From positions 1 to 29,295 of IMG/VR virus record IMGVR_UViG_3300010371_000092: a stretch of DNA of 29,295 nucleotides; one strand, written 5' to 3'. Origin of the DNA: a virus. The notes beneath the pieces were generated by a model. That model was not told where the DNA came from. It made no database searches and was given only the letters and a program-made list of their open reading frames with translations. Of this stretch, positions 2,157 through 26,285 are shown piece by piece (position 1 is the stretch's first letter; each line of letters begins with the position of its first letter). The translations under genes and the position numbers were made by a program.

Positions 2157-2181
2157 CCTCTTTCCTCTGGAGTAAATCAAC

Positions 2182-3669: not shown

Positions 3670-3676
3670 ACAACAC

Positions 3677-4126: not shown

Positions 4127-4153
4127 AAACTTTCCACTTCGGGGTAACAATAG

Positions 4154-8359: not shown

Positions 8360-8362
8360 TGC

Positions 8363-9115
8363 ATGGAGCCGCGCGAACGCTACCTGGATCTGGAGGAAAC
8401 CCTCCGCACCGCGTTTGAAGGGCTGATCTCCGGCACCTGGACCGCGCTGCCCGCCCGCGTGGAAGCGGTGACCAATGGCGGCAACACTGTGGAGGTGCAG
8501 CCGGCGGTGAATGGGCGGGTGCGGCAGATGGACGGCACCTTCAAGTCCATCCAGATGCCGAAGCTGGTGGACGTGCCAGTGTATTGGCCGGGGGGAGGGG
8601 GCGTGACCCTCACCTTCCCCATCACCGCGGGGGTGGATGAGTGTTTGGTGGTGTTTGCGTGCCGGTGCATTGAGAACTGGTGGTTCCAGGGGTTCACCCC
8701 GCCCAAGGGCAGCATCGTCGGCGCAGACGGCCGGCCGCTGAACCCGGCGAATGATGCGCCAGTGTTCCGGATGCACGATCTTTCGGATGGGTTTGCGTTT
8801 GTGGGCTTTCGCAACAAGGCACGCGCCCTCGCCGCGTACAACGCGACCACTGCGCGCGTGCGCTCGGATGACAACGCGACGTACCTTGAATTCGACATGG
8901 TGAACAAAAAGCTCACAGGCGTCTTCAGTGGCGGGATCACCTTGAACAACGTGACGATTGACAGCTCGGGCAACGTGGTCTCCCCCGGCACCATCACGGG
9001 CCAAACCGACGTGGTGGCCAAGACGGGGGGCAGCGCAGTGCACGTCAGCTCGCACAAGCACTCCGGCGTCACCACTGGGGGCAGCCAGTCCGGAGCACCG
9101 GTGGGCGGCACATGA
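8363..9115 (+). CDS. Gp138-family membrane-puncturing spike protein
   Basis: The 250-residue protein follows the hub after three bases. Residues about 15-120 match the Gp138 N-terminal OB-like domain: PARVEAVTNGGNTVEVQPAV, then PKLVDVPVYWPGGGGVTLTF and a Cys-rich strand. Residues about 160-225 read as short alternating strands, as in a triple-stranded beta-helix. The tip has His227, His231 and His233 (HVSSHKHSG), the HxH-type arrangement that binds iron at the apex of P2 gpV and Gp138-like spikes. The protein would trimerise and pierce the outer membrane on contraction. The metal role is inferred from the motif. Confidence 0.88.
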   Translation: MEPRERYLDLEETLRTAFEGLISGTWTALPARVEAVTNGGNTVEVQPAVNGRVRQMDGTFKSIQMPKLVDVPVYWPGGGGVTLTFPITAGVDECLVVFACRCIENWWFQGFTPPKGSIVGADGRPLNPANDAPVFRMHDLSDGFAFVGFRNKARALAAYNATTARVRSDDNATYLEFDMVNKKLTGVFSGGITLNNVTIDSSGNVVSPGTITGQTDVVAKTGGSAVHVSSHKHSGVTTGGSQSGAPVGGT

Positions 9116-9477
9116 GGTATCGGCCGCTCTCCCCCCTCGGGGACTACACGCTTGGCCAGCCCTTCCTGACCAACTCGCCGCAAGCCGTTGCACAAGCCAT
9201 CGGCACCCGGCTGCGCTTGTGGTTGGGGCAGTTCTTCCTCGACATCACCGACGGCACCCCCTGGCCGCAGCAGGTGCTGGGTGAGCGCTATAACAAGGTC
9301 CCCGACGCCGCCATCAAGGCCCGCATCCTCAACACCATCGGAGTGGTGCAATTGACGGCGTACTCGTCGCAGTTTGACGGCAACACGAGGATCCTCACGG
9401 TGAATGCGACCGTGCAAACCCAGTTCAGCTTGACCCCGGTGCCGGTGGTGATCCCGGTGAAGGTGCCCGCAACATGA
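9112..9477 (+). CDS. Baseplate wedge protein, gp25/GPW-like
   Basis: The 121-residue protein is coupled by ATGA to the spike gene. It has the N-terminal GDYTLGQPFLTNSPQAVAQA, then TRLRLWLGQFFLDITDGTPW and KARILNTIGV. This is the typical compact gp25-like fold sequence of simple contractile tails, where it sits at the core of each wedge and primes sheath polymerisation. It precedes the baseplate J gene, the standard order. Confidence 0.85.
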   Translation: MRYRPLSPLGDYTLGQPFLTNSPQAVAQAIGTRLRLWLGQFFLDITDGTPWPQQVLGERYNKVPDAAIKARILNTIGVVQLTAYSSQFDGNTRILTVNATVQTQFSLTPVPVVIPVKVPAT

Positions 9478-10646
9478 CTTCGCCCGTCGCTGCCCAAATC
9501 ACGCCGGCCGGTATTTCCGCGCCCACGTTTGAGGATATTTTCAATTATCTGGTGAGCCAGTACCAGGGCATCTTTGGCGCGGATGCGTATCTGGGGAACG
9601 ACTCGCAGGACGGGCAGCTGCTGGCCATTTTTGCGCAAGCGATCTCGGATTGCAACTACGCCGCCATTGCAGTGTACAACGCGTACTCACCCGCCTTCGC
9701 CATCGGCGCCGGGCTCTCCTCGCAAGTGAAGATCAACGGCCTGAAGCGGCTGGCGGGGGCTTTCTCGAGTGTGACGTTGACCGTGACCGGGGTAGCCGGC
9801 ACAGTCATCATCAACGGCCAGGCACAGGACACCGCAGGCAATCTCTGGGATCTGCCCGCCACCGTCACCATCCCCCAATCCGGCACCATCAACGTGGTCG
9901 CTGTGGCGGACTCCCTCGGCTCCATCACCGCTCCCATCGGCACCGTGAACGTGATCGCCAACCCGCAGCTGGGGTGGCAGACGGTCAACAATCCGACCTT
10001 TGCCGCCGTGCCCGGGGAAACAATGGAGCCGGACGCCGCACTGCGCGTGCGGCAGTCCACCAGCACCGCGCTGCCCTCAGTGGCAATTTTCCCGGGCATT
10101 GTGGCAGCCCTCGAGCAGGTCACCGGCGTGACACGCGTCACGGCCTACGAGAACAACACCAACATCTCCGACATCAACGGCATCCCGCGCAACACGTTGT
10201 GCTTTGTGGTGGAGAACGGGGCGCAACTGGACATCGCCAGCGCAATCGCCAGCAAGGCACCCCCGGGCACAGCCACCTTCGGCAACATCAGCACCCCCAT
10301 CACGGATGCCGCCGGGGTCACCCGCACCATCAATTACCAGACGCCCATCGAGGCGACAGTGACCGCCTCGCTCAACATCCACACCTTGAACGGGTGGGCC
10401 TCGAGCACGCTGGCGCTGATCCAAGCCGCCATCAATAGCTACCTCTCCACGCTGCCGATTGGAGGGGTGGTGAACGTGGCGCAAGTGGTCACCGCCGCAA
10501 CCCTACTCGGCACCCCGCAGGCGGGCACCTTCCTGATCAAGTCCGCCCAGGTGAACATCAATGGGGGCGCCTACCAGAGCACAGACATCCAGTTGGCCTT
10601 CAGCACCGCCGCGGCGCCGGGCACAAACGTGATCACGCTTGTATGA
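9474..10646 (+). CDS. Baseplate J/gp47-like protein
   Basis: The 390-residue protein is coupled by ATGA to the wedge gene. It matches the baseplate J family with an N-terminal TFEDIFNYLVSQYQGIFGAD and LGNDSQDGQLLAIFAQAISD, a beta-rich insert from about residue 95 to 170, then PGETMEPDAALRVRQ. The following GVTRVTAYENNTN and PPGTA segments are typical of the family. The C-terminal part includes YLSTLPIGGVVNVAQVV. Six copies normally link the wedge to the tail fibre network. Length is close to family average. Confidence 0.92.
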   Translation: MTSPVAAQITPAGISAPTFEDIFNYLVSQYQGIFGADAYLGNDSQDGQLLAIFAQAISDCNYAAIAVYNAYSPAFAIGAGLSSQVKINGLKRLAGAFSSVTLTVTGVAGTVIINGQAQDTAGNLWDLPATVTIPQSGTINVVAVADSLGSITAPIGTVNVIANPQLGWQTVNNPTFAAVPGETMEPDAALRVRQSTSTALPSVAIFPGIVAALEQVTGVTRVTAYENNTNISDINGIPRNTLCFVVENGAQLDIASAIASKAPPGTATFGNISTPITDAAGVTRTINYQTPIEATVTASLNIHTLNGWASSTLALIQAAINSYLSTLPIGGVVNVAQVVTAATLLGTPQAGTFLIKSAQVNINGGAYQSTDIQLAFSTAAAPGTNVITLV

Positions 10647-11719
10647 GCAAGGATTACACCTCCCTCATCACCTCCGAGCACGCCGACAAACCCAACTTTG
10701 TCGCTGCGCTGGGGCTGGTCGCCAACGGCGTCGCCGACATCACCGCCGCGGTGCAAACGTTGCTCGCGCTGTTTGATTTTGACACCGCGCTGGGGCAGCA
10801 GCTGGACTTTGTAGGCCAGTGGATCGGGCTCAGCCGCACAGTGGGCGGCGTGCTCTCGGTGCCGTTCTTTGGGTTCGCGGACGATGCCTCAGCGCTGGGC
10901 TTCACCGAGCTCACCAACCCCGCCACCGGTGCACGCTTCGTCGAACTGGGCGAAGACACCAGCTCCTCCGCCACACTGGCGGATCCGGAGTATCGGCTGG
11001 TGCTGGCGGCGAAGATTCTGCAGAACCAATGGGACGGGTCGCAGGCGCAGTTCGAAACCGCCCTCGCAGACATCATTCAAGCCCCCATCACGGTGGTGGA
11101 CCCGGGGGTGCATGTGGTGATGCTGCGGCCGAATGAATTACTGGACCCGGTGCTGACGCAGCTGTTGACGGGGTATGACCTGATTCCGCGCGCAGCGGGC
11201 GTGCGCTACCAGTTTGCCTTCCAATCCGCCAGCCCCAACGCCTGGACCACGGCGGGCACCGCCACCTCCCCTTCCCCCACCACGGTGCAGAAGGTCTCCG
11301 GCACCAATGCATGGAATTCGGCGGCATGGGTGGCGCAGCCGGCGGCACACATCTGGGTGCAGTGGACGGTGCCCGGGACGGGGCCGGCGATGATGGCGGG
11401 GCTGGCGCAGAACCCCAGCGGCTCGCCCAATTTCCCCACGCTGAATTTTGGGCTGGAGACGGCCGGCGGGGGCATCCAGGTTTGGGAAGCAGGGGTGCAA
11501 CAAAACGGCCCGTTCCCCAGCGGGAACTGGGGCAGTTATCTCCCGGGGGATTCCTTCGGGGTCTATTGGGACGGAACCAACGCCGTCTATCTCCACAACG
11601 GGGTGCCGTTCAAAGTGACCACCCCCGCAATAGCCAACAACCCCGGCGCATTGCAGGCGATGTTCGCGCTGTTCTCCGTCGGCGCCGAAGCCGACAACAT
11701 CAACATTGCCACCGCTTGA
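10643..11719 (+). CDS. DUF2612 baseplate protein fused to a lectin-like domain
   Basis: The 358-residue protein is coupled by ATGA to baseplate J. Residues 1 to about 186 match DUF2612: DFDTALGQQLDFVGQWIGL, then DPEYRLVLAAKILQNQWDGS and VVDPGVHVVMLRPNELLDPV. DUF2612 proteins are normally about 200 residues and occupy the gp48/gpI-like slot that connects the wedge to the fibre. Here about 170 more residues follow (187-358), with HIWVQWTV, a GLAQNP segment, GGGIQVWEAGV, PGDSFGVYWDGTNAVYLHNG and a final strand. This looks like a concanavalin A/SPRY-type beta-sandwich, often glycan binding. The fold is inferred from the strand pattern. The fusion would put a receptor-binding module directly on the baseplate. 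Confidence 0.82.
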   Translation: MSKDYTSLITSEHADKPNFVAALGLVANGVADITAAVQTLLALFDFDTALGQQLDFVGQWIGLSRTVGGVLSVPFFGFADDASALGFTELTNPATGARFVELGEDTSSSATLADPEYRLVLAAKILQNQWDGSQAQFETALADIIQAPITVVDPGVHVVMLRPNELLDPVLTQLLTGYDLIPRAAGVRYQFAFQSASPNAWTTAGTATSPSPTTVQKVSGTNAWNSAAWVAQPAAHIWVQWTVPGTGPAMMAGLAQNPSGSPNFPTLNFGLETAGGGIQVWEAGVQQNGPFPSGNWGSYLPGDSFGVYWDGTNAVYLHNGVPFKVTTPAIANNPGALQAMFALFSVGAEADNINIATA

Positions 11720-11728
11720 GGATCACAC

Positions 11729-12844
11729 ATGGCGCTGCAAGTTTACACAAAACCCGCCGTCCGTAATGCCTGGGGCGACACCGCCAGCAACACGGACCTG
11801 GTGGATCCGGGGAACACGTTCGCCTCGGCCGGGTGGCAATTGGGACTGAAGCCGCCGCGGCAATTCTTCAACTGGGTGTTGAATGTGCTCTACCAGGGCA
11901 TCCGCTATTTGTGCCAGGCGGGGATTTCGGCCTGGGACGCGGCGGACGCTTACTCAATTGGCTCGGTGGTGCGGAATGCGGCGGATGGCTTGCTGTATCA
12001 GAGCAAGCTCAACAACAACACCAACCAGCCGCCCGCCACCTCGCCCACTGCCTGGGGCCCACTCACCGCTGTCAATCCAGCGGGCGGGGACTCCAGCAAC
12101 GCACTGGCCACCACACGCTTTGTCACCAATGGATTCGTGCCCGTGGGGGGCAGCTTCGCGCTGCTGAGTGGGCAGGTTGGCAACGGGCAGATTCCGCTCG
12201 GCGGCGTGACCCAGTACCAGGGCAATTTGGCCATCGCGTTCTCCCAGCTCACCGGCAAGATCGCCAACTCGCAGATCCTGGTGGGCGCGGTGACGCAGTT
12301 CCAAGGCTCCCTGTCCATCGCCTGGACCCAGCTCACCGGCACCAAGAACGCCGACCAGTTGAATGGGCTGGTGGCGGGGCCGGCCGGCGGCTTCACCAAC
12401 AACACCCTCGCCCGCACGGACGGCAACGGGTTCACCTGGTCCCGGTACTTCAACCAGTCCTCGGCCAACAACGAGAACCCGGCCAACATCTCGCAGGTGA
12501 TTGTGACCAATGGCACGGACGGGTTCTTCCGCAAGGCCAGCCTCGCTGCGCTACTCGCCGCGTTGGGCGCCACCACGGATGCGGACTTTGGCGCTTCGCT
12601 CGCGGCCAACGGCTTTCAAAAGCTGCCCAGCGGGCTGATCATCCAGTGGGGGCTGGCGAATCCAAACGGGGGCACAATCGGCGTCACGTTCCCGATTGCG
12701 TTCCCGAGCGCCTGCTTCAGCGTGCTGCTGGGGCAGATCAGCTCCGGCCCCACACAAGGGTTCCTCACCGCCGCCGCCACCACGGGGGGCTTTTTGCTCT
12801 CCAACACCGGTGGCGAAACCTATTGGCTTGCCGTAGGACACTGA
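11729..12844 (+). CDS. Tail fibre protein with gp53-like C-terminal domain
   Basis: The 371-residue protein starts at ATG 11729. The N-terminal 60 residues (YTKPAVRNAWGDTASNT, then KPPRQFFNWVLNVLYQGI) are an attachment domain typical of these fibres. Residues about 75-110 contain SIGSVVRNAADGLLYQSK, a carbohydrate-binding-module-like strand set. Residues about 152-207 hold a duplicated 28-residue unit (QIPLGGVTQYQGNLAIAFSQ and QILVGAVTQFQGSLSIAWTQ). The end, from about residue 294, starts GFQKLPSGLIIQWG and matches the gp53-like tail fibre C-terminal domain. This domain usually forms the trimeric receptor-binding tip. The next gene encodes its chaperone. Confidence 0.9.
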   Translation: MALQVYTKPAVRNAWGDTASNTDLVDPGNTFASAGWQLGLKPPRQFFNWVLNVLYQGIRYLCQAGISAWDAADAYSIGSVVRNAADGLLYQSKLNNNTNQPPATSPTAWGPLTAVNPAGGDSSNALATTRFVTNGFVPVGGSFALLSGQVGNGQIPLGGVTQYQGNLAIAFSQLTGKIANSQILVGAVTQFQGSLSIAWTQLTGTKNADQLNGLVAGPAGGFTNNTLARTDGNGFTWSRYFNQSSANNENPANISQVIVTNGTDGFFRKASLAALLAALGATTDADFGASLAANGFQKLPSGLIIQWGLANPNGGTIGVTFPIAFPSACFSVLLGQISSGPTQGFLTAAATTGGFLLSNTGGETYWLAVGH

Positions 12845-12851
12845 CACCCCT

Positions 12852-13223
12852 ATGAAGTACTACAGCGCCGCAGCGCGTGCCTTTTACGACAGCGCCATCC
12901 ACGGCCGGCGTATGCCCAGCGACGTGGTGGAGATCTCGGAACAGGAGTGGGCAGAGCTGCTCGAGGCTCAGTCCACCGGCAAGGAGATTGCCCCCGGCGC
13001 TGGGCGCCGGCCAATGGCGTGCACCCCCGTGCTCACCTTGGAGGTTCGCGCCAGCATTGCACAGCGTCACGCGGACGTGCTAGTGCAGCGTCACGCGGAG
13101 GAACTTGCACTAGGAGTGCAGCCCACCTTGTCCCGCGAGCAACACATCGAATTGCTCACCTGGCGCCACAACTACCGACATGGTCGCATTCTTGAGCCGC
13201 CGGCATGGATCCAATCAAACTGA
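12852..13223 (+). CDS. Tail fibre assembly chaperone-like protein
   Basis: The 123-residue protein lies directly downstream of the fibre. The N-terminal YYSAAARAFYDSAIHG, then VVEISEQEWAELLEAQSTG, is the usual opening of Tfa-like fibre assembly proteins. These proteins bind the fibre tip and help it fold, sometimes staying in the virion. The C-terminal half has two similar 8-residue pieces, QRHADVLV and QRHAEELA, and then LTWRHNYRHGRILEPPAW, a short conserved-looking end. It belongs to the N-terminal Tfa group, though the middle differs from lambda and Mu Tfa. Confidence 0.72.
   Translation: MKYYSAAARAFYDSAIHGRRMPSDVVEISEQEWAELLEAQSTGKEIAPGAGRRPMACTPVLTLEVRASIAQRHADVLVQRHAEELALGVQPTLSREQHIELLTWRHNYRHGRILEPPAWIQSN
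13062..13113. repeat. Direct and inverted repeat inside the fibre chaperone gene
   Basis: The 14-base word cagcgtcacgcgga occurs at 13062-13075 and again at 13086-13099, in frame and 24 bases apart. Around the second copy an 8-base inverted pair, ctagtgca at 13080-13087 and tgcactag at 13106-13113, could form a hairpin with an 18-base loop. Both lie within codons, so duplication of an 8-residue unit explains the direct repeat. A regulatory role is not shown. Confidence 0.6.
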
Positions 13224-13366
13224 CCACTGACGGGCTGCTGGACGCAATCTTTGCCGCCCGGACGCTCGAATTGCTACAACAACAGGTGCGAGCAGCACTC
13301 ATCGAAGCAGCGCTCGGCGAATCTCCGGGGCCTCCACAGCACACGGAAGGGGAGCGCGTTGATTGA
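13205..13366 (+). CDS. Small unknown protein, 53 residues
   Basis: This small reading frame starts at ATG 13205, overlapping the last 19 bases of the fibre chaperone, and ends at TGA 13364-13366. The product has an amphipathic helical middle (LDAIFAARTLELLQQQVRAA) and a Pro/Glu-rich end. The next gene has its TTG start at 13359 inside the end of this frame, preceded by GGAAGGGGAG, so this frame would bridge an otherwise empty 135-base gap in a genome that has almost no gaps. I do not recognise the protein. The tight overlaps on both sides are the main support. Confidence 0.55.
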   Translation: MDPIKLTTDGLLDAIFAARTLELLQQQVRAALIEAALGESPGPPQHTEGERVD

Positions 13367-13796
13367 TTCAATTATTGAGGCATTGCTTGGGGCCATCCCC
13401 AAGGAAACGAGGGTACTCATCATGCGTGTGGTATGGGTGGGTGGAATATCGTTTCATGTGGCCTGGGTGTGTGGGTTGTTTGCGCCGCTCGGGCTCGAAG
13501 CACCCTTCGCCAAGGCTCAGGACGTGGTGAAGGTGGCGAGCAGCGTCGAACAGATCACCGGCGAGCTGAAGGTCTTCGCCAAGAGCACCGACCTCACCGC
13601 CATCGCCGACACGTTGCGGCAGGATCGCATTGACCGGCTGGACCAGGCGATCCAAACCGTGCGCTCGCAGCAGTGTCGCACCGCGGCCAATTCTCCCGCG
13701 CGGCAGAATTACACGTTGCGGCTGAACGAGCTGTTCAAGAAATACGTTGAGGTGGCCGGGCGCGAGCCGCACGTGCCGCAGTGTGACGAAACATGA
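13359..13796 (+). CDS. Membrane protein at start of lysis region, TTG start
   Basis: I take TTG 13359 as the start because GGAAGGGGAG lies just upstream and the earlier in-frame codons give an Arg/Ser-rich stretch unlike a protein. The 145-residue product begins with a short amphipathic helix, then one strong membrane segment at about residues 19-46 (VVWVGGISFHVAWVCGLFAP). A long, soluble, helical part follows (ASSVEQITGELKVFAKSTD, then LRQDRIDRLDQAIQTVRSQQ), with two cysteines near the end. One N-terminal membrane anchor with a coiled-coil-like tail is the layout of an inner-membrane spanin, but no lipoprotein partner is embedded. It is coupled to the endolysin by ATGA, so a lysis role is likely. 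The exact class is open. Confidence 0.6.
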   Translation: MIDSIIEALLGAIPKETRVLIMRVVWVGGISFHVAWVCGLFAPLGLEAPFAKAQDVVKVASSVEQITGELKVFAKSTDLTAIADTLRQDRIDRLDQAIQTVRSQQCRTAANSPARQNYTLRLNELFKKYVEVAGREPHVPQCDET

Positions 13797-14245
13797 CGCC
13801 GCTCAGCCCGCATTTCTCGCTGGAGGAACTCACGTTCTCCCAGCTGGCCGCGCGCAAAGGCCTCGACAACACGCCCAACGGGGAGCAACGCGCCGCGCTG
13901 ACACGGCTCTGCGTCACGCTGCTAGAGCCTGCCCGGGCGCTGCTGGGGGTGCCACTGCACGTGGACAGCGGGTATCGCGCCCCAGCCATCAATCTGGCCG
14001 TGGGCGGGGCAGCCAATTCTGCGCACATGGAGGGGCGTGCCGCGGACGTGATCCCCATCGGCATCACGCTACAGGAAGCGTTCGACCGGTTGCGGTTCTC
14101 GGCGCTGCCGTTTGATCAATTGATTACGGAGTGTGACGCGTGGTTGCACCTGGCCGTGGCCCCTGCCAATGCGCTGCCGCGTGGCGAGGTGTTGGCGGCC
14201 ACCGGCGGCCCCGGCCGCTGGAGCTATGTACGGGTGACGCGATGA
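13793..14245 (+). CDS. M15 family peptidase endolysin
   Basis: The 150-residue protein starts at ATG 13793 overlapping the previous stop. It matches the M15A (M15_3) peptidases: an opening HFSLEELTFSQLAARKG with DN, then PARALLGVPLHVDSGYR, and the zinc site. Probable ligands are His78 and Asp85 in SAHMEGRAAD and His119 in WLHLAV, with an acidic residue shortly before. This family cuts the L-Ala-D-Glu or D-Ala cross-link region of the peptidoglycan peptide and is a common phage endolysin. No signal peptide is visible, so release would depend on a holin. The size is normal for a single-domain enzyme. Confidence 0.9.
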   Translation: MTPLSPHFSLEELTFSQLAARKGLDNTPNGEQRAALTRLCVTLLEPARALLGVPLHVDSGYRAPAINLAVGGAANSAHMEGRAADVIPIGITLQEAFDRLRFSALPFDQLITECDAWLHLAVAPANALPRGEVLAATGGPGRWSYVRVTR

Positions 14246-14697
14246 CTGAACGCATGACACAAGTGGCCCCCTTTCCGCAGGCGCTGGCGGAGCTGGTTTC
14301 GCGGGCAACGTATCGGCCCGGGTGGAGGCTTTGGCTGGGGCACGTGCAACGTGACAAAGACTCCTCCGGGCAGTATGTGGGCGAGGGGCTGACGCTGGTG
14401 GTGACGACGCGGGGGTACAACTCCTACCAGCCCAGTGATGGTGAAACATACCGCGTGGCGCATTTCTTCATTGTCCCCGCCGCCACATACGATGAGCGCG
14501 CGTGGCAGCGGTGGCTGTTTGACCGGTTGGTGGATGTGGAGACGCACGAGTGCATGGAGTTCTTCAAGATCGACGGCCGGCGCCCTTATGCCCCGTCCCA
14601 CGGCCCCGGCAACAACCCATACACCGTGCGCGACCGGCAGACGGAAGAGGACGCGCACACCATGTTTGACGGCACCCGCACAAAGGGCACTGTATGA
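14242..14697 (+). CDS. Conserved-type hypothetical protein in lysis region
   Basis: The 151-residue protein is coupled by ATGA at both ends (14242 and 14694). It is soluble with aromatic-rich strands: YRPGWRLWLGHVQRDKDSS, then GEGLTLVVTTRGYNSYQPSD and later HECMEFFKIDGRRPYAPSHG with PYTVRD at the end. The His-Glu and Pro-His pairs near the C-terminus recall proteins of unknown function that occur widely in phages. I do not assign a function. No membrane segment or signal peptide is present. Confidence 0.75.
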   Translation: MTERMTQVAPFPQALAELVSRATYRPGWRLWLGHVQRDKDSSGQYVGEGLTLVVTTRGYNSYQPSDGETYRVAHFFIVPAATYDERAWQRWLFDRLVDVETHECMEFFKIDGRRPYAPSHGPGNNPYTVRDRQTEEDAHTMFDGTRTKGTV

Positions 14698-14999
14698 ATC
14701 ACTTCATCGCGTTGTTGGCCGCCGCGCTGCTGGCGGGAGTGGAAGTGCCGCCGGATCCTGCGGCGCCCACGGTACCGGACAGGCCGCTCACGGGCGTGGT
14801 GGTCACGCAGTGCAATTTGATTGTGGCGGTGTATCTGACGATGCCGGATGGGCGGCTGCTGCGCTTTGACCATTCTGCTGGACTGCCGCCGGAGACGTTG
14901 CTGGCCATGGCCTATGGGGCGGCGCGGTCTGAGCGGGTGGAGGTGGACTGCAACGGCAACGACGGCCCCGTGGGCTACGAGAGGCACGACCCGATATGA
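14694..14999 (+). CDS. Small exported protein with signal peptide
   Basis: The 101-residue product starts MNHFIALLAAALLAG, a short hydrophobic segment that reads as a signal peptide or signal anchor, then a Pro-rich stretch (PPDPAAPTVPDRP). The remaining 65 residues have strands and two cysteines (near positions 40 and 85) that could form a disulfide in the periplasm. It is coupled to both neighbours by ATGA. Its place between endolysin and holin candidate suggests a part in envelope disruption, but there is no lipobox cysteine after the hydrophobic segment, so it is not an obvious outer-membrane spanin. Function unknown. Confidence 0.65.
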   Translation: MNHFIALLAAALLAGVEVPPDPAAPTVPDRPLTGVVVTQCNLIVAVYLTMPDGRLLRFDHSAGLPPETLLAMAYGAARSERVEVDCNGNDGPVGYERHDPI

Positions 15000-15223
15000 A
15001 TCGCGCGCACACAACTTACGCCGCCGTGGGGCTTGGCGCCAACATTGCGGTCATTCTGCCTTGGCTCTGCGCCCTGGGGCACATCACCATGCCCGCCGAA
15101 GTCGCTGTGGCGGCGGGCGGGCTGATTGCCGCGGCGGTGGGCTGCTTTCTCCATCGACTTCCGGGGACTCCGGTCCCTCCTACGGCGCCGGGGGCACCGG
15201 CGCAAACACAAATGCGGAGTTGA
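14996..15223 (+). CDS. Holin candidate, two membrane segments
   Basis: The 75-residue protein has two predicted membrane helices at about 8-28 (YAAVGLGANIAVILPWLCAL) and 32-53 (AEVAVAAGGLIAAAVGCFLH), a short turn and a Pro/Ala-rich soluble tail. Small size, two helices and location in the lysis region fit a class II holin. It overlaps the preceding gene by ATGA. In this layout holin would follow rather than precede the endolysin. A different membrane role is possible, since holins are defined by function rather than sequence. Confidence 0.7.
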   Translation: MNRAHTTYAAVGLGANIAVILPWLCALGHITMPAEVAVAAGGLIAAAVGCFLHRLPGTPVPPTAPGAPAQTQMRS

Positions 15224-15228
15224 CTGAC

Positions 15229-15630
15229 ATGAGTGCAAATGCATTGAATCCTGCCGTGCCCTTCCTGGTGAAGGTGAACACGGACCTGATTGTGGGCGCG
15301 GTGATCCGGAACTCGGACCCCGCCAAAGAGGCCGCGCGGGCCGGAGCGGTGATCAAGGTGGCCGCTGCGCTGCAGAAGCTGAACGGTGGGGATGTGGCCG
15401 GTGGGCTGGCGGACATTGAAGCTGCCACTGCAGCGGCTGCGCTGGATCCTGCGGAAAGTGCCGCACTGGCAACCGCCATCTCCTACGTGGCAAGCAAAGC
15501 CGCCGCCGTGCAACAGTTCCTTGCCGGGAGCATCACGGGGGCACTGGTTTCACAGATCGTGCAGCAGGTGGCCACAGAAGCCACGGCGGTTGCCCAGAAG
15601 TACTTGACTCCTGCTGCAAAAGCTGGTTGA
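15229..15630 (+). CDS. Ala-rich unknown protein at the end of the late operon
   Basis: The 133-residue product starts at ATG 15229, five bases after the holin candidate stop. It is Ala/Val-rich and probably all-helical: VPFLVKVNTDLIVGAVIRNS, then a middle with GGDVAGGLADIEAATAAAAL and a C-terminal QFLAGSITGALVSQIVQQVA. There are no cysteines and no clear membrane segment, though the helices are amphipathic. It is the last gene before the terminator at 15653. I do not recognise the family. Proteins of this sort often sit beside holins in phages, but a function cannot be assigned. Confidence 0.65.
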   Translation: MSANALNPAVPFLVKVNTDLIVGAVIRNSDPAKEAARAGAVIKVAAALQKLNGGDVAGGLADIEAATAAAALDPAESAALATAISYVASKAAAVQQFLAGSITGALVSQIVQQVATEATAVAQKYLTPAAKAG

Positions 15631-15652
15631 CCGGTTGCGTTACCCCGGAATT

Positions 15653-15681
15653 GACGGCGTGGCTGACGCGCCGTCCTTTTT
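15653..15681 (+). terminator. Intrinsic terminator closing the late operon
   Basis: A perfect 7-base GC-rich stem, gacggcg at 15653-15659 and cgccgtc at 15669-15675, encloses a 9-base loop and is followed by CTTTTT (15676-15681). This is a textbook Rho-independent terminator reading rightward. It sits 22 bases after the stop of the last lysis-region gene and 20 bases before the next start. Confidence 0.85.
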
Positions 15682-15700
15682 GATTGAGAGGAGTGCGTTC

Positions 15701-16468
15701 ATGAAACTCGGCCGCCTGCCCCGCAAATTCAACCCGCGCATACCGCATCTTTCGGCACTGCTTGCGGGGAAACGTCGCACGCTGGCCCCGCCGCCCTCCT
15801 CCGCTGATTACACGCTCGGCATGCCCGCAGCGTTGGGGATGTTTGCGAATGACTCCCTGGGGGACTGCACCTGCGCTGCGCTGTACCACGCGCTGCAGGT
15901 TTGGTCTCTGGCGGGGCAAGGCACGCTCGACACCGAGCCAGACAACAACGCCGTGCTGCTCTACGAGCAGACATGTGGGTATGTGCCGGGGGACGCCGCC
16001 ACAGACCAGGGTGGCGTGGAACAGGATGTGCTGAGTTATGCCATGCTTGCCGGCATCCCCATTGGCGCTGACGGGTCCGGGCAGCACCGCATCACGGCAT
16101 TCGTGGAGGTGGACCCCGCCAATCAGGCCGACGTGAAGCTCGCCATTGCACAGTGCGGTGTGGCGTATATTGGCTTCGATGTCCCGGACTACGCCATGAA
16201 CACCACCGGGCTCTGGGATGTGCAACCGGGCAAACCCACCATTGTTGGCGGGCATGCAGTGGTGCTGGCGGCGTATGATTCCGTGGGCCCTACCTGCATC
16301 ACCTGGGGCCGGCTGCAGAAAATGACCTGGGCGTTTTTCGATGAGTACACGGACGAGGCGTACGCCGTGATCGACAAGGAGTGGGTCCGCAACACCGGGC
16401 TCACTCCGGCCGGCGGCACGCTGGAGCAGCTCGAAACTCAGATGGCCGCCATTCGGGACGCTGCATGA
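15701..16468 (+). CDS. Papain-like (C1-type) cysteine peptidase-fold protein
   Basis: I choose ATG 15701 (GAGAGGAG upstream) over a TTG at 15635, because MKLGRLPRKFNPRIPHLS is the natural start and the longer version spans the terminator. The product has 255 residues. Cys56 lies in NDSLGDCTCAA (a second Cys at 58), followed by a helix. His185 lies in GGHAVVLAAYD, and the next strand has CITWGRLQKMTWAFFDEY. This order matches papain-fold proteins, with Cys56 as nucleophile and His185 as base. The usual Asn-Ser-Trp is replaced by Ile-Thr-Trp, so activity is uncertain. There is no signal peptide. It is coupled to the lipase by ATGA, so they work at the same time, perhaps during host takeover or release. 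Confidence 0.72.
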   Translation: MKLGRLPRKFNPRIPHLSALLAGKRRTLAPPPSSADYTLGMPAALGMFANDSLGDCTCAALYHALQVWSLAGQGTLDTEPDNNAVLLYEQTCGYVPGDAATDQGGVEQDVLSYAMLAGIPIGADGSGQHRITAFVEVDPANQADVKLAIAQCGVAYIGFDVPDYAMNTTGLWDVQPGKPTIVGGHAVVLAAYDSVGPTCITWGRLQKMTWAFFDEYTDEAYAVIDKEWVRNTGLTPAGGTLEQLETQMAAIRDAA

Positions 16469-17319
16469 ATGATTGGGAGCTGATGCTGCTGGAGTGGTAC
16501 TGCGAGGCGCTGTTTGACGCCAATGGCCCGGCGGTGCTCGCTCCGGCGCTGGACGCACGCTTTGCGGGCTGGCAGCTGGTGGGGCATGTGATTGGGCGGG
16601 ATGTGTTGCTGCCACGCAAGGCGCGCATGGCGCTGGCGCCACGGGACCTGTACTATGGATTGCTGCTGCGCTCGGTGGCGATGCCGAAGCAGCTGCTGTG
16701 CCTGGTGCGGGGGACGGCGACATTTGTGGAGTGGATTGAGGACGGGGAGTTCCTGCCCATGCCGCACCCGATTGCGGGTGAGGTGGAGACGGGATTCTAC
16801 TCCGCTTACCACACGCTCTATTTCCGGGCGCTCGACGGCAGCATCGCTCCGCTGGTGTCAGCGCTCACCGCGGAGGCACGCGCAGCAGACGGGCTCATGG
16901 TGGTGGGGCATTCGCTGGGGGCCGCCATGGTGACGTACTTGGTGACGGAATTGGCGGACGCTCGCCGACTGGGCACGCGGGTGCGGGGCCGCTTCATTGC
17001 CTCACCCCGGCCGGGGGATCGCACATTCGGCAAATGGGCAGTGGGCGTGATGGGGGTGAACTGGGCGGGTTACGCCTATGAGATGGACCATGTGCCGCGG
17101 GTGCCCATCTTCTTCAATTATGCACCGCTGCCCGGCACGGAGGAGATTCTGGCAGCCACAGCCAAAGCCCGCATCGCTATCAATCCTCGCTGCTCTCATC
17201 ATGTGGTTTGCTACGCAGCGCTGCTTGGAGGTCAGGCAGCCATTTCAGCAGCCAAGGCGGCGACCGCGGCGGAGCAGCAATTCTTGGGATGTGTGCTAGG
17301 CGCTGCCGTGTCTCCGTGA
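16465..17319 (+). CDS. Class 3 lipase-like alpha/beta hydrolase
   Basis: The 284-residue protein starts at ATG 16465 overlapping the preceding stop. It has the lipase class 3 layout: LLCLVRGTATFVEWIEDGEF with the oxyanion strand, a helix, then VVGHSLGAAMVTYLVTELAD with nucleophile Ser150, then FIASPRPGDRTFG, Asp208 in YEMDHVPRVP, and His245 or His246 in the SHHVVCYAALL segment. All three catalytic positions are filled, so it is probably active on a lipid or ester. No signal peptide or membrane segment is seen. Phage-borne lipases are uncommon. It could act on the host envelope or on a cytoplasmic ester. Its last 140 bases are antisense to the end of a convergent gene. Confidence 0.8.
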   Translation: MNDWELMLLEWYCEALFDANGPAVLAPALDARFAGWQLVGHVIGRDVLLPRKARMALAPRDLYYGLLLRSVAMPKQLLCLVRGTATFVEWIEDGEFLPMPHPIAGEVETGFYSAYHTLYFRALDGSIAPLVSALTAEARAADGLMVVGHSLGAAMVTYLVTELADARRLGTRVRGRFIASPRPGDRTFGKWAVGVMGVNWAGYAYEMDHVPRVPIFFNYAPLPGTEEILAATAKARIAINPRCSHHVVCYAALLGGQAAISAAKAATAAEQQFLGCVLGAAVSP

Positions 17320-17620
17320 AGGAGAGCGCGATTCCATTCTCGAATGCAACGGTAAGCACTGCCGTGGGTAGTAGTACTATGGGGTCCTCAATCCAGCGCA
17401 TGTCCGTGTGCAACAATATGTCTCCCGCAAACACCCCCACTCCGCCAATCGGGCGCCACCGGGCCAACCGGCTGTAAAACAATATTGGCCTCCCCGCCAC
17501 CACTACCCGCTGCCCCTCCACCCGCGTTTCCTCTTCCAGCCGCTGGCGCTCATAATCCGGAGCATCAAGCTCCACCCCACGTGTGTCCAGCAGCCCACAA
17601 CTCCACCCAGACCATTTCAT
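17180..17620 (-). CDS. Unknown protein, last gene of the leftward operon
   Basis: The 146-residue product begins at ATG 17620, one base after the preceding stop, with GGAAGGGAAG upstream. It contains ETRVEGQRVVVAGRPILFYS, then RWRPIGGVGVFAGDILLHTD and PIVLLPTAVLTVAFENGIAL, which reads as a beta-rich soluble protein. The last 46 codons are antisense to the lipase gene, ending in a Pro/Arg-rich tail (about 35 residues) less likely to be conserved. I do not recognise the family. The coherent N-terminal part and the tight junction support it as a gene. Confidence 0.55.
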   Translation of the reverse strand: MKWSGWSCGLLDTRGVELDAPDYERQRLEEETRVEGQRVVVAGRPILFYSRLARWRPIGGVGVFAGDILLHTDMRWIEDPIVLLPTAVLTVAFENGIALSFTETRQRLAHIPRIAAPPRSPPWLLKWLPDLQAALRSKPHDESSED

Positions 17621-17621
17621 T

Positions 17622-17936
17622 TCAGCCACTTCCTTCCCTATGCCACACGCCATCTGGCGAGAACAGGATGATGCGCTCGCCGCCTTCCTGCGATAGCCCC
17701 TCACAGTAGGAACAGGGCATCGTCAGTAGTACAGCGTGTTTGCACCGGATCTCGTCCGTCTCGTGAGTGCAATGCTTATCCCATAACAGCTTAAATGCAC
17801 GCTCGAAACCGGCTCGAAAGATAGCCTCGTCGCGCAACGAACTTACGAGCTGCGGACGCGCTTCAAAGTACTCATGCATGGCATCGTTGCGGGCGGCTTC
17901 CATCTCGGCGTAGTACAGCTCGGTGGAATCGTTCAT
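17622..17936 (-). CDS. Small protein with Cys/His-rich C-terminal half
   Basis: The 104-residue product starts at ATG 17936, overlapping the previous stop by ATGA. The first half is helical and acidic (TELYYAEMEAARNDAMHEYF, then a Phe-rich helix FRAGFERAFKLLWDKH). The second half has Cys and His at CTHETDEIRCKH, then CSYCEG, spaced like a small zinc-binding knuckle, and a final ILFSPDGVWH. Zinc binding is inferred from spacing. Base composition here is near 52-57% GC in lines I counted, lower than the tail genes. Function unknown. Confidence 0.65.
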   Translation of the reverse strand: MNDSTELYYAEMEAARNDAMHEYFEARPQLVSSLRDEAIFRAGFERAFKLLWDKHCTHETDEIRCKHAVLLTMPCSYCEGLSQEGGERIILFSPDGVWHREGSG

Positions 17937-18205
17937 CGCCTACGCTCCACTTGCTGCCGAAGGATCTCGCACATATCGCCTTTCAGGCGCTTGCCGTGAC
18001 ACTTCCGGCAAACCTTCTTAGCGGGACTCATGCTGTTGCGGTCAGGAACTTCGCGCGGCCCATCGTGGCAAACAATGCAGAGCTTCGCTTTTGAGGGACG
18101 CAAGTCTTCGACTCCCCGCTCGCACAGTGCGCACCGGCCGCCGCTTTGCACAAGGTTAACGCCATGCTTGTCGCAGTACGTTTCCGATGTGAGCTGATCT
18201 GTCAT
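17933..18205 (-). CDS. Small zinc-ribbon protein, two Cys-pair sites
   Basis: The 90-residue product starts at ATG 18205 (ATGA with the upstream gene). It has a first site, YCDKHG with CALCERG (C-x2-H and C-x2-C, 11 residues apart), and a second, LCIVCHDG with VCRKCHGKRLKGD (two C-x2-C pairs about 20 residues apart). Such double ribbons bind zinc and mostly serve in nucleic acid or protein contacts. The end is Arg-rich. A function is not assignable. It lies in a run of tiny overlapped genes. Confidence 0.7.
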   Translation of the reverse strand: MTDQLTSETYCDKHGVNLVQSGGRCALCERGVEDLRPSKAKLCIVCHDGPREVPDRNSMSPAKKVCRKCHGKRLKGDMCEILRQQVERRR

Positions 18206-18390
18206 GGCATGAGCCCCATGTGATCGGAGGGACGCCGGTCGACGGCGCACATGAGCGTTCGCGTCTCCCACCCTGGAATAGAGCGCAGGGCATCAGCTAA
18301 ATCCGGCCTGCGCTCGCGCTCGAAGGCGTCAATGATTTCCCGTACCGGGATCGGTACGCGCTCATCTTCGGGACGGTGCTCACCATTCAT
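18202..18390 (-). CDS. Small unknown protein, 62 residues
   Basis: The product starts at ATG 18390 with ATGA overlaps on both sides. It is charged and probably helical in the middle (VREIIDAFERERRPDLADAL), with a single cysteine and a Met/Pro-rich end. No family recognised. The perfect overlap with its neighbours is the main support for a gene. Confidence 0.6.
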   Translation of the reverse strand: MNGEHRPEDERVPIPVREIIDAFERERRPDLADALRSIPGWETRTLMCAVDRRPSDHMGLMP

Positions 18391-18599
18391 TCTAACCACT
18401 CCGGGCCTGCGCCACAACGCATGCACCTATGCGCAACCGGGCGTATGGCATCGCACTTGATGGCTCTTAAGCACGCCGCACACGTCACTTTTGACGGAAC
18501 GCCAGTGGTCGTAAGGCTGCGACTTGCGCGCCCGCACCAAGTTCGCCCCTGCGACAACAGGGCATGGACCTTTGGCACTGCTGTCCGCTGTTGGGTCAT
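18387..18599 (-). CDS. Small Cys-pair protein, 70 residues
   Basis: The product starts at ATG 18599, overlapping the upstream stop by ATGA, and ends at 18387 overlapping the next start. It is basic, with TCAACLRAIKCD and HRCMRCGAG, which are two C-x2-C pairs about 17 residues apart, the layout of a minimal zinc ribbon. The N-terminal half is basic and Ser/Thr-rich. Nucleic-acid contact is possible but not shown. Confidence 0.65.
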   Translation of the reverse strand: MTQQRTAVPKVHALLSQGRTWCGRASRSLTTTGVPSKVTCAACLRAIKCDAIRPVAHRCMRCGAGPEWLE

Positions 18600-18802
18600 T
18601 GGCAGGCCGGCACGTAGCGAATGAAATGGGACTCCCAGCGCATTTGCTTCAGCCGGGCGCGCAAGTCCCCGCTCCAGTCGAGCTGCGCAATGGTGCGGCA
18701 CTTTTTGTGCACCCGCACGGCCTGTCCCGCCGGGTTCTGCACCACAGCGAAATGGGGCAGCACCAATAGCCCCGCGCAATAACAACAGTAACGACCGCTC
18801 AT
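18596..18802 (-). CDS. Small CCHC-like zinc-binding candidate, 68 residues
   Basis: The product starts at ATG 18802 (ATGA overlap). It opens with YCCYCAG, then a hydrophobic strand (LLVLPHFAVVQNPAGQAV), then RVHKKC, so the ligands C-x2-C and H-x2-C are 23 or so residues apart. This spacing fits a small zinc-binding fold. The C-terminal part is Arg-rich (DLRARLKQMRWESHFIRYV). Unknown function. Confidence 0.65.
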   Translation of the reverse strand: MSGRYCCYCAGLLVLPHFAVVQNPAGQAVRVHKKCRTIAQLDWSGDLRARLKQMRWESHFIRYVPACQ

Positions 18803-19236
18803 ACGTGCTTGATCCTTTTGATGCGTTGCCCCCGAATCTCCGCCGGGCGATCTACAAACCGTGCATCCGCCGGGTGCGTCACCATCCAGAGCGAAACCTC
18901 CCGGTAATGGGCGGCGCGGATGCCCTGAATTGTGCGCAGCCGGGCCCACAACGCGCGATACACCCTGCGTCCCTCTGGGTTGACCTTGAGCCGGCGGCCG
19001 TGATACATGAAGCCGCGCGGATTCATCTCTCGCAGAATGCGCGTGAAGCGGTCGGCAGGCGAGAGCCTGACACGGGCACGGCCGGTGATGGCCCAGGGGC
19101 CGTAGCGATCCTCCCCGTACGCGGTCCAGAAGTAATACTCCCCGCGTTCAAATCTCCCCTCCGCTCCTGCCGCAAAATGCACCTTTGACCGTTGCGGGCT
19201 CACCGGCACCCATTTCCCCCGCACTCGCACCTTCAT
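18799..19236 (-). CDS. Basic unknown protein, 145 residues
   Basis: The product starts at ATG 19236, overlapping the upstream micro-gene by ATGA. It is strongly basic, with many Arg residues. Segments include FERGEYYFWTAYGEDRYGPW, then FTRILREMNPRGFMYHGRRL and YREVSLWMVTHPADARFVDR, suggesting mixed strands and helices. No family recognised. Charge alone would suit nucleic-acid binding. Codons and overlap pattern match the neighbours. Confidence 0.65.
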   Translation of the reverse strand: MKVRVRGKWVPVSPQRSKVHFAAGAEGRFERGEYYFWTAYGEDRYGPWAITGRARVRLSPADRFTRILREMNPRGFMYHGRRLKVNPEGRRVYRALWARLRTIQGIRAAHYREVSLWMVTHPADARFVDRPAEIRGQRIKRIKHV

Positions 19237-19364
19237 AACACTCTCACCCAGTCATACCACCGAATGTTCGGATTCAACGCCGCCACTCGTTCTCGCCACC
19301 GGTACAAATGCCAGTCTTCAAACATCCATCCGCCCCACACAATCTGAAAGCGTCGATGGGGCAT
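19233..19364 (-). CDS. Micro-protein, 43 residues, Trp-rich
   Basis: A reading frame of 43 codons runs from ATG 19364 to TGA 19235-19233. Its start sits in the upstream gene's stop (TGATG) and its stop in the downstream start (ATGA). Without it there would be a 128-base gap, unlike anything else in this operon. The peptide contains RFQIVWGGWMFEDWHLYRW with six Trp in total, and several Arg. Aromatic and basic content suggests binding to a nucleic acid or protein surface, but this is a guess. Confidence 0.65.
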   Translation of the reverse strand: MPHRRFQIVWGGWMFEDWHLYRWRERVAALNPNIRWYDWVRVL

Positions 19365-19564
19365 CACGGCAGCACCTCATAACGCCGCGCCCCGCACCCG
19401 CAATAAAGCGTGCGATGCGTCCACGGGCCGGAGGCGCTGTACCGCTGGGTCACGCTGCGCCCAACCCAAGAATGATTGATGCACGTGTAGCGCTGTTGCC
19501 GGGCGTCTGTGAGCGGCACACAAATCACCACCACCTCACTCGCCCTTGGGATACGTGTGCTCAT
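19364..19564 (-). CDS. Small protein with Cys-rich end, 66 residues
   Basis: The product starts at ATG 19564 within the end of the upstream gene and ends at 19364 overlapping the next start. It has a strand SEVVVICVPLTDARQQ, then YTCINHSWVG and a C-terminal RTLYCGCGARRYEVL. The YCGCGARRY piece is typical of small zinc-ribbon ends. The start overlaps the upstream gene by 29 bases. Function unknown. Confidence 0.6.
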   Translation of the reverse strand: MSTRIPRASEVVVICVPLTDARQQRYTCINHSWVGRSVTQRYSASGPWTHRTLYCGCGARRYEVLP

Positions 19565-19790
19565 CGGTGTGTCCGGCGCCCTTGGTGCAGCGGCCCAGCG
19601 CTGACTCCACTTGCGGGCAGCGCAGGTGATGCGGCGGGGCGCCTTTGTCTTGTGGGTGGGTGCGGGCGTAGCGGTCGGCTTCCGTCCCGCGCCGCTGCAC
19701 CAGCTCCAACGCCATAGCACGCGCGTCGGGGTGCACCCCGGGCGTGCTCAAATACTCCCGCAACTCTGCGTCCGACAAAGGCGCTCTCAC
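19536..19790 (-). CDS. Small protein with C..GH..EH motif, GTG start
   Basis: I choose GTG 19790 because it forms GTGA with the upstream stop at 19789-19787 and no good ATG is present. The 84-residue product has DAELREYLSTPGVHPDARAM at the start, a basic centre, and an end with C..S, LGRC and KGAGHTDEHTYP. A Cys pair followed by G-H-x2-E-H is frequent in small phage proteins of unknown role and may bind zinc. Confidence 0.6.
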   Translation of the reverse strand: MRAPLSDAELREYLSTPGVHPDARAMALELVQRRGTEADRYARTHPQDKGAPPHHLRCPQVESALGRCTKGAGHTDEHTYPKGE

Positions 19791-20029
19791 GGCGGCAACA
19801 GGTCGCTGGGCATCTTGGGCATGGAAATCGCGGCGGCCACTGTGACGTCGGCGAGCAGCTTGATGATGGATTGGTCGCGCATATTGGTGGACCAATTGGC
19901 GCCGTCCTCCCCGGGCGCCGCCCAAATCACCACCACCGCCGGCACCTCCTTGGGCGGGTAATGCTTGGCGATCAGAGCCACGATTTCATTGCTGATTGCC
20001 TGCCGCAATTCGGGGGAGATGCTGCTCAT
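19787..20029 (-). CDS. Small unknown protein, 80 residues
   Basis: The product starts at ATG 20029, overlapping the upstream stop at 20026 by ATGA. It has a helix (SPELRQAISNEIVALIAKHY) then a strand EVPAVVVIWAAPGEDGANWS and a helix of TNMRDQSIIKLLADVTVAAA. There are no cysteines. I do not recognise it. Confidence 0.6.
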   Translation of the reverse strand: MSSISPELRQAISNEIVALIAKHYPPKEVPAVVVIWAAPGEDGANWSTNMRDQSIIKLLADVTVAAAISMPKMPSDLLPP

Positions 20030-25566: not shown

Positions 25567-26285
25567 GAGGACGCGACGTTCTGGGCCGCTCTTGCCGTTG
25601 CCAATTCTGGGTGTGCTTGAAGTGCTGCCGCTTCCACCAGTTGGCACTCCAGGGGCAATGGGTCAGGAAACATGTTCTGTCCATTGAAATGGCTCTGCAT
25701 CTTGTCATTTACGTAGCTGACGCCTCTCACAAGCAATGCTTCTCGCAGCACTGAGAGGGCGAGCTTTACTGCATTGTCATTGATAGCATCAGCAACTAAT
25801 TGATAGAAATGAGTAGTGCTGATGCGGTGCGCTTCGGTCATGCCTCGCGGCCAGTCGAATGACGCATAAGTTGGTCGCACCACAATGCCTGTCAATTTGC
25901 CCGCTCGTGACAGCCGCCAAACATATGCTAACCATGAAGCTGCATCCGCAGTCAACTCACCATTTGGCCGCTGCTTTTTTGGAAAGTACACGCCGCCGCC
26001 ATCACCCCCGTCTGTCAAGTTTGTGAGAGCACCACGCCCGATCCGTTTGATCTCTTCAATCTCAAACGCGTATGCTTCTTCCTCATCGGCAAATTCCTGC
26101 ACCACAACATATGAAATTTCAAGTCCCGCGTCCCAGATTTCCCTGATCATGTCGCATTTTGGGTGAACAACACCTCGTTTTGCTTCTTGTGCATGATGAT
26201 ACATACGGTTGCCCTTGCCTTTGCCAACATAGAATACCAGCCCGTCGCGCGGGTCAAGCAAGTGGTATACGTAGTAAGTCTTCAA
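25563..26285 (-). CDS. GIY-YIG nuclease domain protein
   Basis: The 240-residue product starts at ATG 26285 (ATGA with the upstream gene). Residues 4-27 hold YYVYHLLDPRDGLVFYVGKG (the GIY-YIG pair, as VYH and FYVGKG), then GNRMYHHAQEAKRG, an acidic strand with EEAYAFEIEEIKRIGRGAL and a final NLTDGGDGG, all typical of the nuclease fold. The C-terminal 130 residues (TTHFYQLVADAINDNAVKL and others) have no named domain and may direct target binding. GC is about 48% over four hand-counted lines, against about 70% in neighbouring polymerase lines, a mark of separate origin. A free-standing homing or mobile endonuclease is likely, though a repair or defence role is possible. Confidence 0.85.
   Translation of the reverse strand: MKTYYVYHLLDPRDGLVFYVGKGKGNRMYHHAQEAKRGVVHPKCDMIREIWDAGLEISYVVVQEFADEEEAYAFEIEEIKRIGRGALTNLTDGGDGGGVYFPKKQRPNGELTADAASWLAYVWRLSRAGKLTGIVVRPTYASFDWPRGMTEAHRISTTHFYQLVADAINDNAVKLALSVLREALLVRGVSYVNDKMQSHFNGQNMFPDPLPLECQLVEAAALQAHPELATARAAQNVASS

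Follow-up and report, generated by a model that had tools for sequence, protein, structure and literature searches.

A papain-like protein and a predicted class 3 lipase encoded past a strong terminator in a myophage genome recur as a gene pair in other phages, in several of them near lysis genes

We analysed an IMG/VR record of 29,295 bases, called here the window in its whole length, which we judged from its gene content (Pfam and PHROGs matches) to be a myophage. Its features are listed in Table 1. The rightward late genes stop at 15630 and are followed by a gap of 70 nt, after which two genes are encoded on the same strand, one for a papain-like protein and one for a putative class 3 lipase. 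The ATG of the first gene lies 19 nt past the T-run of a predicted terminator, with AGGAG upstream at 15689-15693, and its stop overlaps the start of the second in the four letters ATGA (16465-16468). A first-pass annotation of the same DNA had described a coupled protease-like/lipase-like pair placed just past a strong terminator, and both elements were confirmed. The holin-like and endolysin genes sit 0.5-1.9 kb upstream of the pair. The identified genes to its right (DNA polymerase, thymidylate synthase) are on the opposite strand.

Table 1. Features of the window discussed in the text.
Feature	Position	Strand	Basis
Sheath gene	2182-3669		Pfam/PHROGs matches
Tape measure gene	4796-6343		Pfam/PHROGs matches
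Baseplate and fibre genes	up to 13223		Pfam/PHROGs matches
Endolysin, peptidase M15	13793-14245	+	PF08291, E 1.1e-19; phrog_894 (endolysin), E 2.9e-33
phrog_1540 protein, unknown function, true start uncertain	14140-14697	+	E 9.5e-24
101-aa protein, hydrophobic N-terminus, possibly exported	14694-14999	+	hydropathy 2.71 over 12 residues
Holin-like protein, 75 aa	14996-15223	+	phrog_9284 (holin), E 2e-4; 19-residue hydropathy up to 1.99
Ala-rich protein of 133 aa, final gene upstream of the terminator	15229-15630	+	frame within ORF 14848-15630; start chosen by us
Predicted intrinsic terminator, boundary of late operon and pair	15653-15681	+	hairpin and T-run
AGGAG, ribosome-binding-like site of the papain-like gene	15689-15693	+	read from the sequence
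Papain-fold cysteine peptidase-like protein, 255 aa	15701-16468	+	phrog_19005; AlphaFold model; xylellain match
Predicted class 3 lipase, 284 aa	16465-17319	+	PF01764; triad columns invariant

Some of the small proteins around the pair remained without a convincing family, namely the 101-residue protein in Pfam and PHROGs, and the product of 15229-15630 in Pfam, PHROGs and NCBIfam. NCBIfam gave no match for either protein of the pair, and PADLOC gave none for the three proteins submitted. The ATG start of the papain-like gene is backed by homologues, since Gly4 is kept in 71 of the 76 papain-like sequences described below. A longer protein starting at the TTG at 15635 was rejected because it would place the hairpin inside the gene and because the homologues start at the ATG.

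The hairpin (15653-15675) begins 22 nt past the stop of the last late gene. It has nine pairs, of which seven are Watson-Crick (GACGGCG/CGCCGTC), followed by T.G and G-C. Seven of the nine are G-C pairs, the loop has five bases, and CTTTTTG follows, such that the terminator including its five T spans 15653-15681. Under a strict rule (at least nine pairs, at least seven G-C pairs, five T in eight), this is the only site on the + strand across the 29,295 bases. The same rule gave a mean of 0.05 sites in 60 dinucleotide shuffles, three of which had a site as good. Looser rules gave 15 sites in positions 1-20000 when 14.3 were expected from shuffles. Such sites are no commoner than chance, and hence only its strength distinguishes the hairpin. 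The RNA of 15645-15690 folds at -21.4 kcal/mol (z -4.72, none of 200 shuffles as low), and the longer stretch 15625-15705 is unexceptional (z -0.98), with no special structure beyond the hairpin.

Because this strong hairpin lies in the 70-nt gap past the late genes, late RNA should mostly end there. The first-pass annotation had suggested a promoter inside the previous gene as a way around it. We discarded this bypass: RNA started within 15229-15630, or at any other promoter upstream of the hairpin, would still cross 15653-15681. No sigma-70-like promoters were found in 1-20000, where 3.1 were expected by chance, a result that is uninformative on phage-type promoters. The routes that remain for the expression of the pair are readthrough, antitermination, or a promoter hidden at the very end of the hairpin.

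The papain-like protein matches phrog_19005 over nearly its full length (residues 2-251, E 9.8e-37), a family that PHROGs lists with unknown function. Pfam gave no family at E ≤ 1, and thus no peptidase C1 match. The AlphaFold model adopts a papain fold (pLDDT 95.5). Its best structural match is xylellain (3ois; Z 21.6, rmsd 2.8, 212 residues, 18% identity), and the next PDB matches are cathepsin zymogens and mature cathepsins. A profile of 65 relatives also matches xylellain (E 1e-5); this set leaves out rows longer than 320 aa, L052, L067 and the rows from annotated GenBank regions, and includes L143. Alignments of the model to many zymogens start at its residue 1, a hint, taken from the first and last aligned residues, that residues 1-30 may occupy the place of pro-segments. 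Hydropathy revealed no hydrophobic N-terminus. Among the structural neighbours of the model in BFVD is the endolysin of Gordonia phage OneUp (E 6e-4).

We compared 76 papain-like sequences, window included, obtained from 137 loci by removing three short sequences as well as L079 and L080 (intein), and by thinning at 70% identity. Asn50, Cys56, Tyr88, Asp102, Gly104, His185 and Trp202 are invariant in all of them. The letters C56 and S150 named in the first-pass annotation for the two proteins are correct, and the catalytic residues are kept in the relatives: the Cys and His in 76 of 76 papain-like sequences, and the lipase triad in the seven phage lipases aligned. The likeness to xylellain extends to the fold, the Cys and the His. 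The sites that we take to be those of the papain-type catalytic Asn, before S-W-G, and of the oxyanion Gln are different. Asn50 stands six residues before the Cys, where xylellain has Gln, and by alignment this oxyanion position is Asn in all 76 sequences. The position of the catalytic Asn of papain corresponds, by profile alignment to 3ois, to residue 200, which is Ile in the window and mostly Val, Ile or Leu elsewhere (the eight commonest letters are V 38, I 15, L 8, D 6, A 2, S 2, N 2 and K 1); T/S-W-G is preceded by one of these three residues in 61 of the 76 rows. Given these two altered positions, and unlike xylellain-type C1A peptidases, which it also differs from in its lack of a Pfam match, we describe the protein as papain-like and stop short of placing it within C1A itself. 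Its protease activity may be low, since the catalytic Asn is absent by alignment.

Two relatives have unusual architectures. In L079 an intein begins directly past the catalytic His, and the gene of L080 equals it in length and in identity to the window. Inteins commonly occupy functional active sites. In L082 the papain-like protein is fused to Big_2 and copper-amine-oxidase-N domains.

The second gene is predicted to encode an esterase or lipase. It matches PF01764 (Lipase_3) with 49 bits, for a curated cut-off of 22 (E 7.5e-13), and has a Ser150/Asp208/His245 triad with a GxSxG nucleophile. Solved lipases are among its sequence relatives in the PDB (3tgl, E 1.8e-5). The AlphaFold model is poor (pLDDT 61), hydropathy indicated no clear signal peptide, and a weak PHROGs match is named endolysin (phrog_102, E 0.086). 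Two of the class 3 lipases that we collected sit in Pseudomonadota contigs.

The first-pass annotation regarded the pair as rare in phages. This holds for GenBank, where papain relatives occur in four of 50,697 phage records (two further papain queries recovered the same few phages, in two and four records) and where neither the window lipase (tblastn, E 0.01) nor that of L143 used as a query had a relative. It holds less for metagenomic phages as regards the papain-like protein: we confirmed 138 relatives in IMG/VR, of which 80 were kept. The IMG/VR scan returned two close relatives of the lipase, in L143 (41%) and L144 (39%). Plasmids had no papain relative, and scans that used one protein as the query recovered either no relative or the source itself.

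The pair itself was found at ten distinct loci after merging near-copies, in both gene orders, which bears out the expectation in the first-pass annotation of a conserved pair in relatives. The two genes overlap in four of the ten (window, L086, L088, L173). L143 has the order of the window, with the genes 3 nt apart, and L030 has a lipoprotein gene between papain and lipase. The order is lipase then papain in the other loci: L037 with its near-copies L038, L040 and L042 (about 0.2 kb apart), L086 and L088 (contigs titled Proteobacteria), and L160, L161, L163 and L173 (with the widest gap, 0.8 kb, in L160). In L173 a lipoprotein gene comes first and the last two genes overlap by ATGA; L161 encodes a highly divergent papain-like protein. 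The lipases are of two kinds, long in the window and L143 and short in the other eight. A tie between the pairing and Gram-negative hosts was set aside, as too few hosts are named. In phiKX1 the gene next to the papain gene was considered as a candidate lipase and rejected, as its product is a lipoprotein and none of three records had a Lipase_3 match.

Broader scans place these loci among many unpaired ones. Among the 80 viral papain records kept, five had a Lipase_3 match, in every case no more than 0.6 kb from the papain gene. Conversely, a wider lipase scan gave 58 loci, nine with papain genes, of which five had already been seen. Of 52 genome loci, 35 had their genomes checked for Lipase_3, as did L143 and L144. 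This gave ten genomes with a match; the lipase is beside the papain gene only in L086, L088 and L143, and in L092 the match is outside the retrieved stretch around the papain gene. In a tree of 81 papain-like proteins, no lipase was noted beside the papain gene in 71 rows (some contigs end nearby), and the ten paired rows require seven changes, at least six by well-supported branches. Shuffled labels required 9.6 on average, and only three of 500 shuffles were as low as seven. The pairing is therefore partly inherited, yet was repeatedly gained or lost.

Hairpins before the papain gene are recurring, not general. In phiKX1, phiKX2 and close relatives a hairpin of 8-10 bp with a T-run lies 17 nt before the first in-frame papain ATG; the GenBank starts of phiKX1 and phiKX2 are annotated later, and homology extends upstream of them. 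Strong hairpins directly before the papain start are thus found in two separate lineages, that of the window and the Komagataeibacter clade. A conserved terminator before papain genes in general was rejected, because just two of the 76 diverse loci have a strong hairpin within 250 nt upstream; a looser scan adds L008, L024 and L032. At lipase loci, L167 has a hairpin of 14 pairs whose end lies about 10 nt upstream of the approximate start of the lipase, and 11 strong hairpins fall in the bin 1.0-1.5 kb upstream (55 loci, 500-bp bin, 34 in 425 kb overall), a cluster to which we gave no test value because many of these phages look related. One could read the hairpin as a deliberate low-dose or conditional switch (an attenuator) for the pair, and not as the leftover end of an operon. 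The two lineages and the L167 hairpin speak for such a switch, but its scarcity across papain loci makes it highly improbable in our view. A terminator before an add-on block fits the gain of the pair at the end of the late operon.

The genes around the papain gene point to lysis. We searched Pfam with the two upstream neighbours (134 ORFs) and the one downstream neighbour (69 ORFs) of the papain genes, most of them without a named family. ORF picking was crude and includes false ORFs. The upstream set results from 138 picked ORFs minus four, with L032 and the window losing two each; two L037 ORFs were replaced by hand, one by its known lipase, and hence one of the two Lipase_3 matches was put in. 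The downstream set leaves out the window lipase and has the phiKX1 lipoprotein put in. Among the families listed, those cutting peptidoglycan (endolysins) are the commonest identified neighbours, as a plain count of matches pooled across loci. The best 25 of 35 upstream and the best 25 of 27 downstream families include GH25 (3 upstream and 1 downstream), Amidase_2 (2 and 1), Rv2525c-type GH (3), DUF5675 (2), M15_4 (2), and one each of Amidase_3, GH46, phage lysozyme, C71 and holin. Single cases are a T4-lysozyme-like protein just before the lipase in L160 and L161 and a 2is5/7dnp-type protein in the same place in L163; in L160 and L163 these genes share about a dozen bases with the lipase gene. 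In ctsHD2 the papain gene is overlapped by one for an amidase, and L037 has a peptidoglycan-binding protein 1.3 kb before the lipase.

We propose that the pair is an accessory envelope-degrading unit of the phage lysis programme, and give this an about even chance. The ten pair loci, the endolysin neighbours, the L082 fusion, the BFVD endolysin neighbour and a published lysis-cassette lipase (see below) argue for it. Other observations argue against it: the terminator cuts the pair of the window off from its own lysis genes, most papain genes have no lipase noted beside them, the catalytic Asn is absent by alignment, the lipase model is poor, and, with no signal peptide, the proteins could just as well act on something in the cytoplasm. 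Several loci also have other contexts. The papain gene of L006, among the closest relatives (52%), is in the head module, between a head morphogenesis gene and DUF2213, and that of L007 follows a weakly glycosyltransferase-like gene. Papain genes are near an integrase (and tRNA) in phiKX2 and phiKM1, and the lipase of Shewanella phage vB_Sb_QDWS adjoins an integrase. Other phage class 3 lipases, e.g., that of P-SSM2, sit elsewhere, and hence the family is not tied to lysis everywhere.

These contexts suit the chief alternative, moron cargo past the late terminator, directed at the host while it lives or at rival phages, e.g., by an envelope change that excludes other phages or by cytoplasmic host takeover. 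Such cargo would fit the placement directly behind a terminator, seen both in the window and in Komagataeibacter phages, the integrase and tRNA neighbours and the head-module gene. It accounts less well for the repeated endolysin neighbours and for the overlapping endolysin and lipase genes of L160 and L163; moreover, no promoter of its own is visible in the window, where there is hardly room for one. We regard moron cargo as conceivable, if rather unlikely. The suggestion in the first-pass annotation that the enzymes could attack the envelope at release is favoured by the lysis-gene surroundings, and its interpretation overall is partly supported.

Lipase genes are often preceded by a lipoprotein gene. 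Using a home-made pattern to recognise lipoproteins, we found one whose end is at most 20 nt from the lipase start in 27 of 49 non-redundant loci and in four of 406 control ORFs, a heuristic comparison in which the control is worth less because its ORFs come from all loci, were not thinned and include false ORFs. A lipoprotein gene, recognised by eye, overlaps the lipase gene by ATGA in BgManors32 and vB_Sb_QDWS, both of them cultured phages, and phiKX1 has papain and lipoprotein genes without lipase. The arrangements observed are lipoprotein-lipase, papain-lipoprotein, papain-lipase, lipoprotein-lipase-papain and papain-lipoprotein-lipase.

The lipoprotein-lipase layout resembles that of the T6SS Tle3-Tli3 system, in which, according to the part of PMC9860674 available, a lipase has an outer membrane lipoprotein partner. 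We compared the layout alone. Together with the head-module context of L006, it would suit virion-borne or ejected entry enzymes, or Tle-type antibacterial effectors with the lipoprotein as immunity protein. However, the context here is that of a phage, no such lipoprotein was recognised beside the pair of the window, the two lipoprotein-like genes of L143 precede the papain gene and not directly the lipase, and none of the 30 window proteins scanned had a PHROGs match named VgrG or PAAR. We regard entry enzymes or effectors as very unlikely. The variety of arrangements would also be allowed by a cascade, that is, by a modular device opening the outer membrane of Gram-negative hosts, in which the lipoprotein would restrain the lipase, and the papain-like protease would free it or cut envelope proteins after holin opening. 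In such a device the N-terminal 30 residues of the papain-like protein could be a pro-segment. We offer this extension tentatively and consider it unlikely as it stands.

If the pair acts in lysis as proposed, every step beyond the gene layout being inference, late transcription would mostly stop at 15681, and part of it would read through, or a phage antitermination would act. Readthrough would yield a modest dose of the pair, and the ATGA overlap would couple lipase translation to that of the protease. Both proteins, having no signal peptide, would gather in the cytoplasm late in infection and exit via holin lesions like an ordinary endolysin. The lipase might then cleave lipids at their ester links (acyl chains of phospholipids or of LPS), with the protease acting on envelope proteins, and the two together would help to strip the outer membrane of what we assume to be a diderm host.

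Parts of such a programme have precedents. In the available text of PMC6116114, lysis of Gram-negative bacteria is described as the work of holin, endolysin and spanin, and the LysB of mycobacteriophages (Ms6, D29) as a cutinase-like lipolytic serine hydrolase with GxSxG, encoded downstream of lysA in the lysis module, which cuts the mycolate-arabinogalactan ester and so acts on the outer envelope layer at release. Compared by these descriptions, both enzymes are lipolytic with GxSxG, and the one studied here differs in belonging to class 3 (PF01764) and in its papain-like partner. A phage of Pseudomonas syringae pv. actinidiae has a lipase gene upstream of holin and endolysin in its lysis cassette, and the lipase has esterase activity, helps kill with permeabilisers and has a measured antibacterial effect (PMC12173070, passages available). 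As described there, it carries a carbohydrate-binding domain, and these passages mention no papain-like partner. The acquisition of xylellain-type C1A peptidases by tailed phages is reported in a passage of PMC10380794 that names neither lysis genes nor lipases. The main text of the phiKX paper (PMC8566455), as available, has none of the words lipoprotein, protease, lysozyme and moron. Lipolytic lysis enzymes, a lysis-cassette lipase and xylellain-type phage peptidases are thus already in print. In the available portions of these sources we did not find the pairing with class 3 lipases, and none of the open-licence papers listed in our searches described a papain-like and class 3 lipase pair in phages.

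A protease-lipase(-lipoprotein) block that recurs among lysis genes would add another enzymatic route across the outer membrane. Were the lipoprotein-restrained device real, it would provide an enzymatic alternative or supplement to spanins, and a counterpart of LysB outside mycobacteria. Such a block would offer a ready set of phage envelope enzymes, and phrog_19005 gains a candidate function.

The first part of the window has an unusual composition. At positions 1-1500 the G+C content reaches 0.74-0.75, far higher than in the remaining window, and the AT skew is negative (-0.29 at 501-1500). An ORF in this region had no match in the PHROGs search at E 0.01. Further along, a homing-endonuclease-like frame adjoins the DNA polymerase gene.

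Coordinates of features in the window and in phages encoding papain-like or lipase relatives
Sequence	Positions	Strand	Feature
Window	295-1572		ORF
Window	25563-26285	-	Homing-endonuclease-like frame (phrog_314, E 1.1e-7)
L144	3974-6690		Lipase relative and flanking genes
BgManors32 (OK665842.1)	27149-27691		Class 3 lipase match
phiKM1 (L005)	6641-7820	opposite to papain-like gene	RelA/SpoT-type synthetase and HicA/HicB-like genes
L079	6007-7851		Papain-like ORF with intein
L082	5869-7224		Papain-like protein
L068	5977-7089		Papain-like protein
L160	5053-5424		Truncated papain-like frame

A close relative of the window lipase, in the IMG/VR locus L144, is flanked by a transglycosylase-like gene and by a collagen-like fibre frame (the latter judged by eye), and the 8.7 kb covered of this locus contain no papain-like gene. 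The class 3 lipase of the Burkholderia phage BgManors32 is annotated as a glycerol dehydrogenase in OK665842.1 and as an esterase/lipase in NC_070955.1. The records of Shewanella phage vB_Sb_QDWS (OK094664.1) and of "Hujiaoplasma phage zrk29-1" (OP650936.1), the latter with a Tenericutes host, are both 47,902 long and gave equal lipase match scores; the host label of one of them may be doubtful.

In phiKM1, the synthetase and HicA/HicB-like genes lie just upstream of the papain-like gene. The L082 protein carries Big_2 and copper-amine-oxidase-N domains at its C-terminus; for the L068 protein there was only a weak copper-amine-oxidase-N match, below the cut-off (E 0.012). In L079, an HNH-domain intein starts immediately past the catalytic His of the papain-like gene; L080, with an ORF of identical length, is probably similar. 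Finally, the truncated frame of L160, a locus with the lipase and papain-like pair, immediately precedes an intact copy, as if the two had arisen by tandem duplication.
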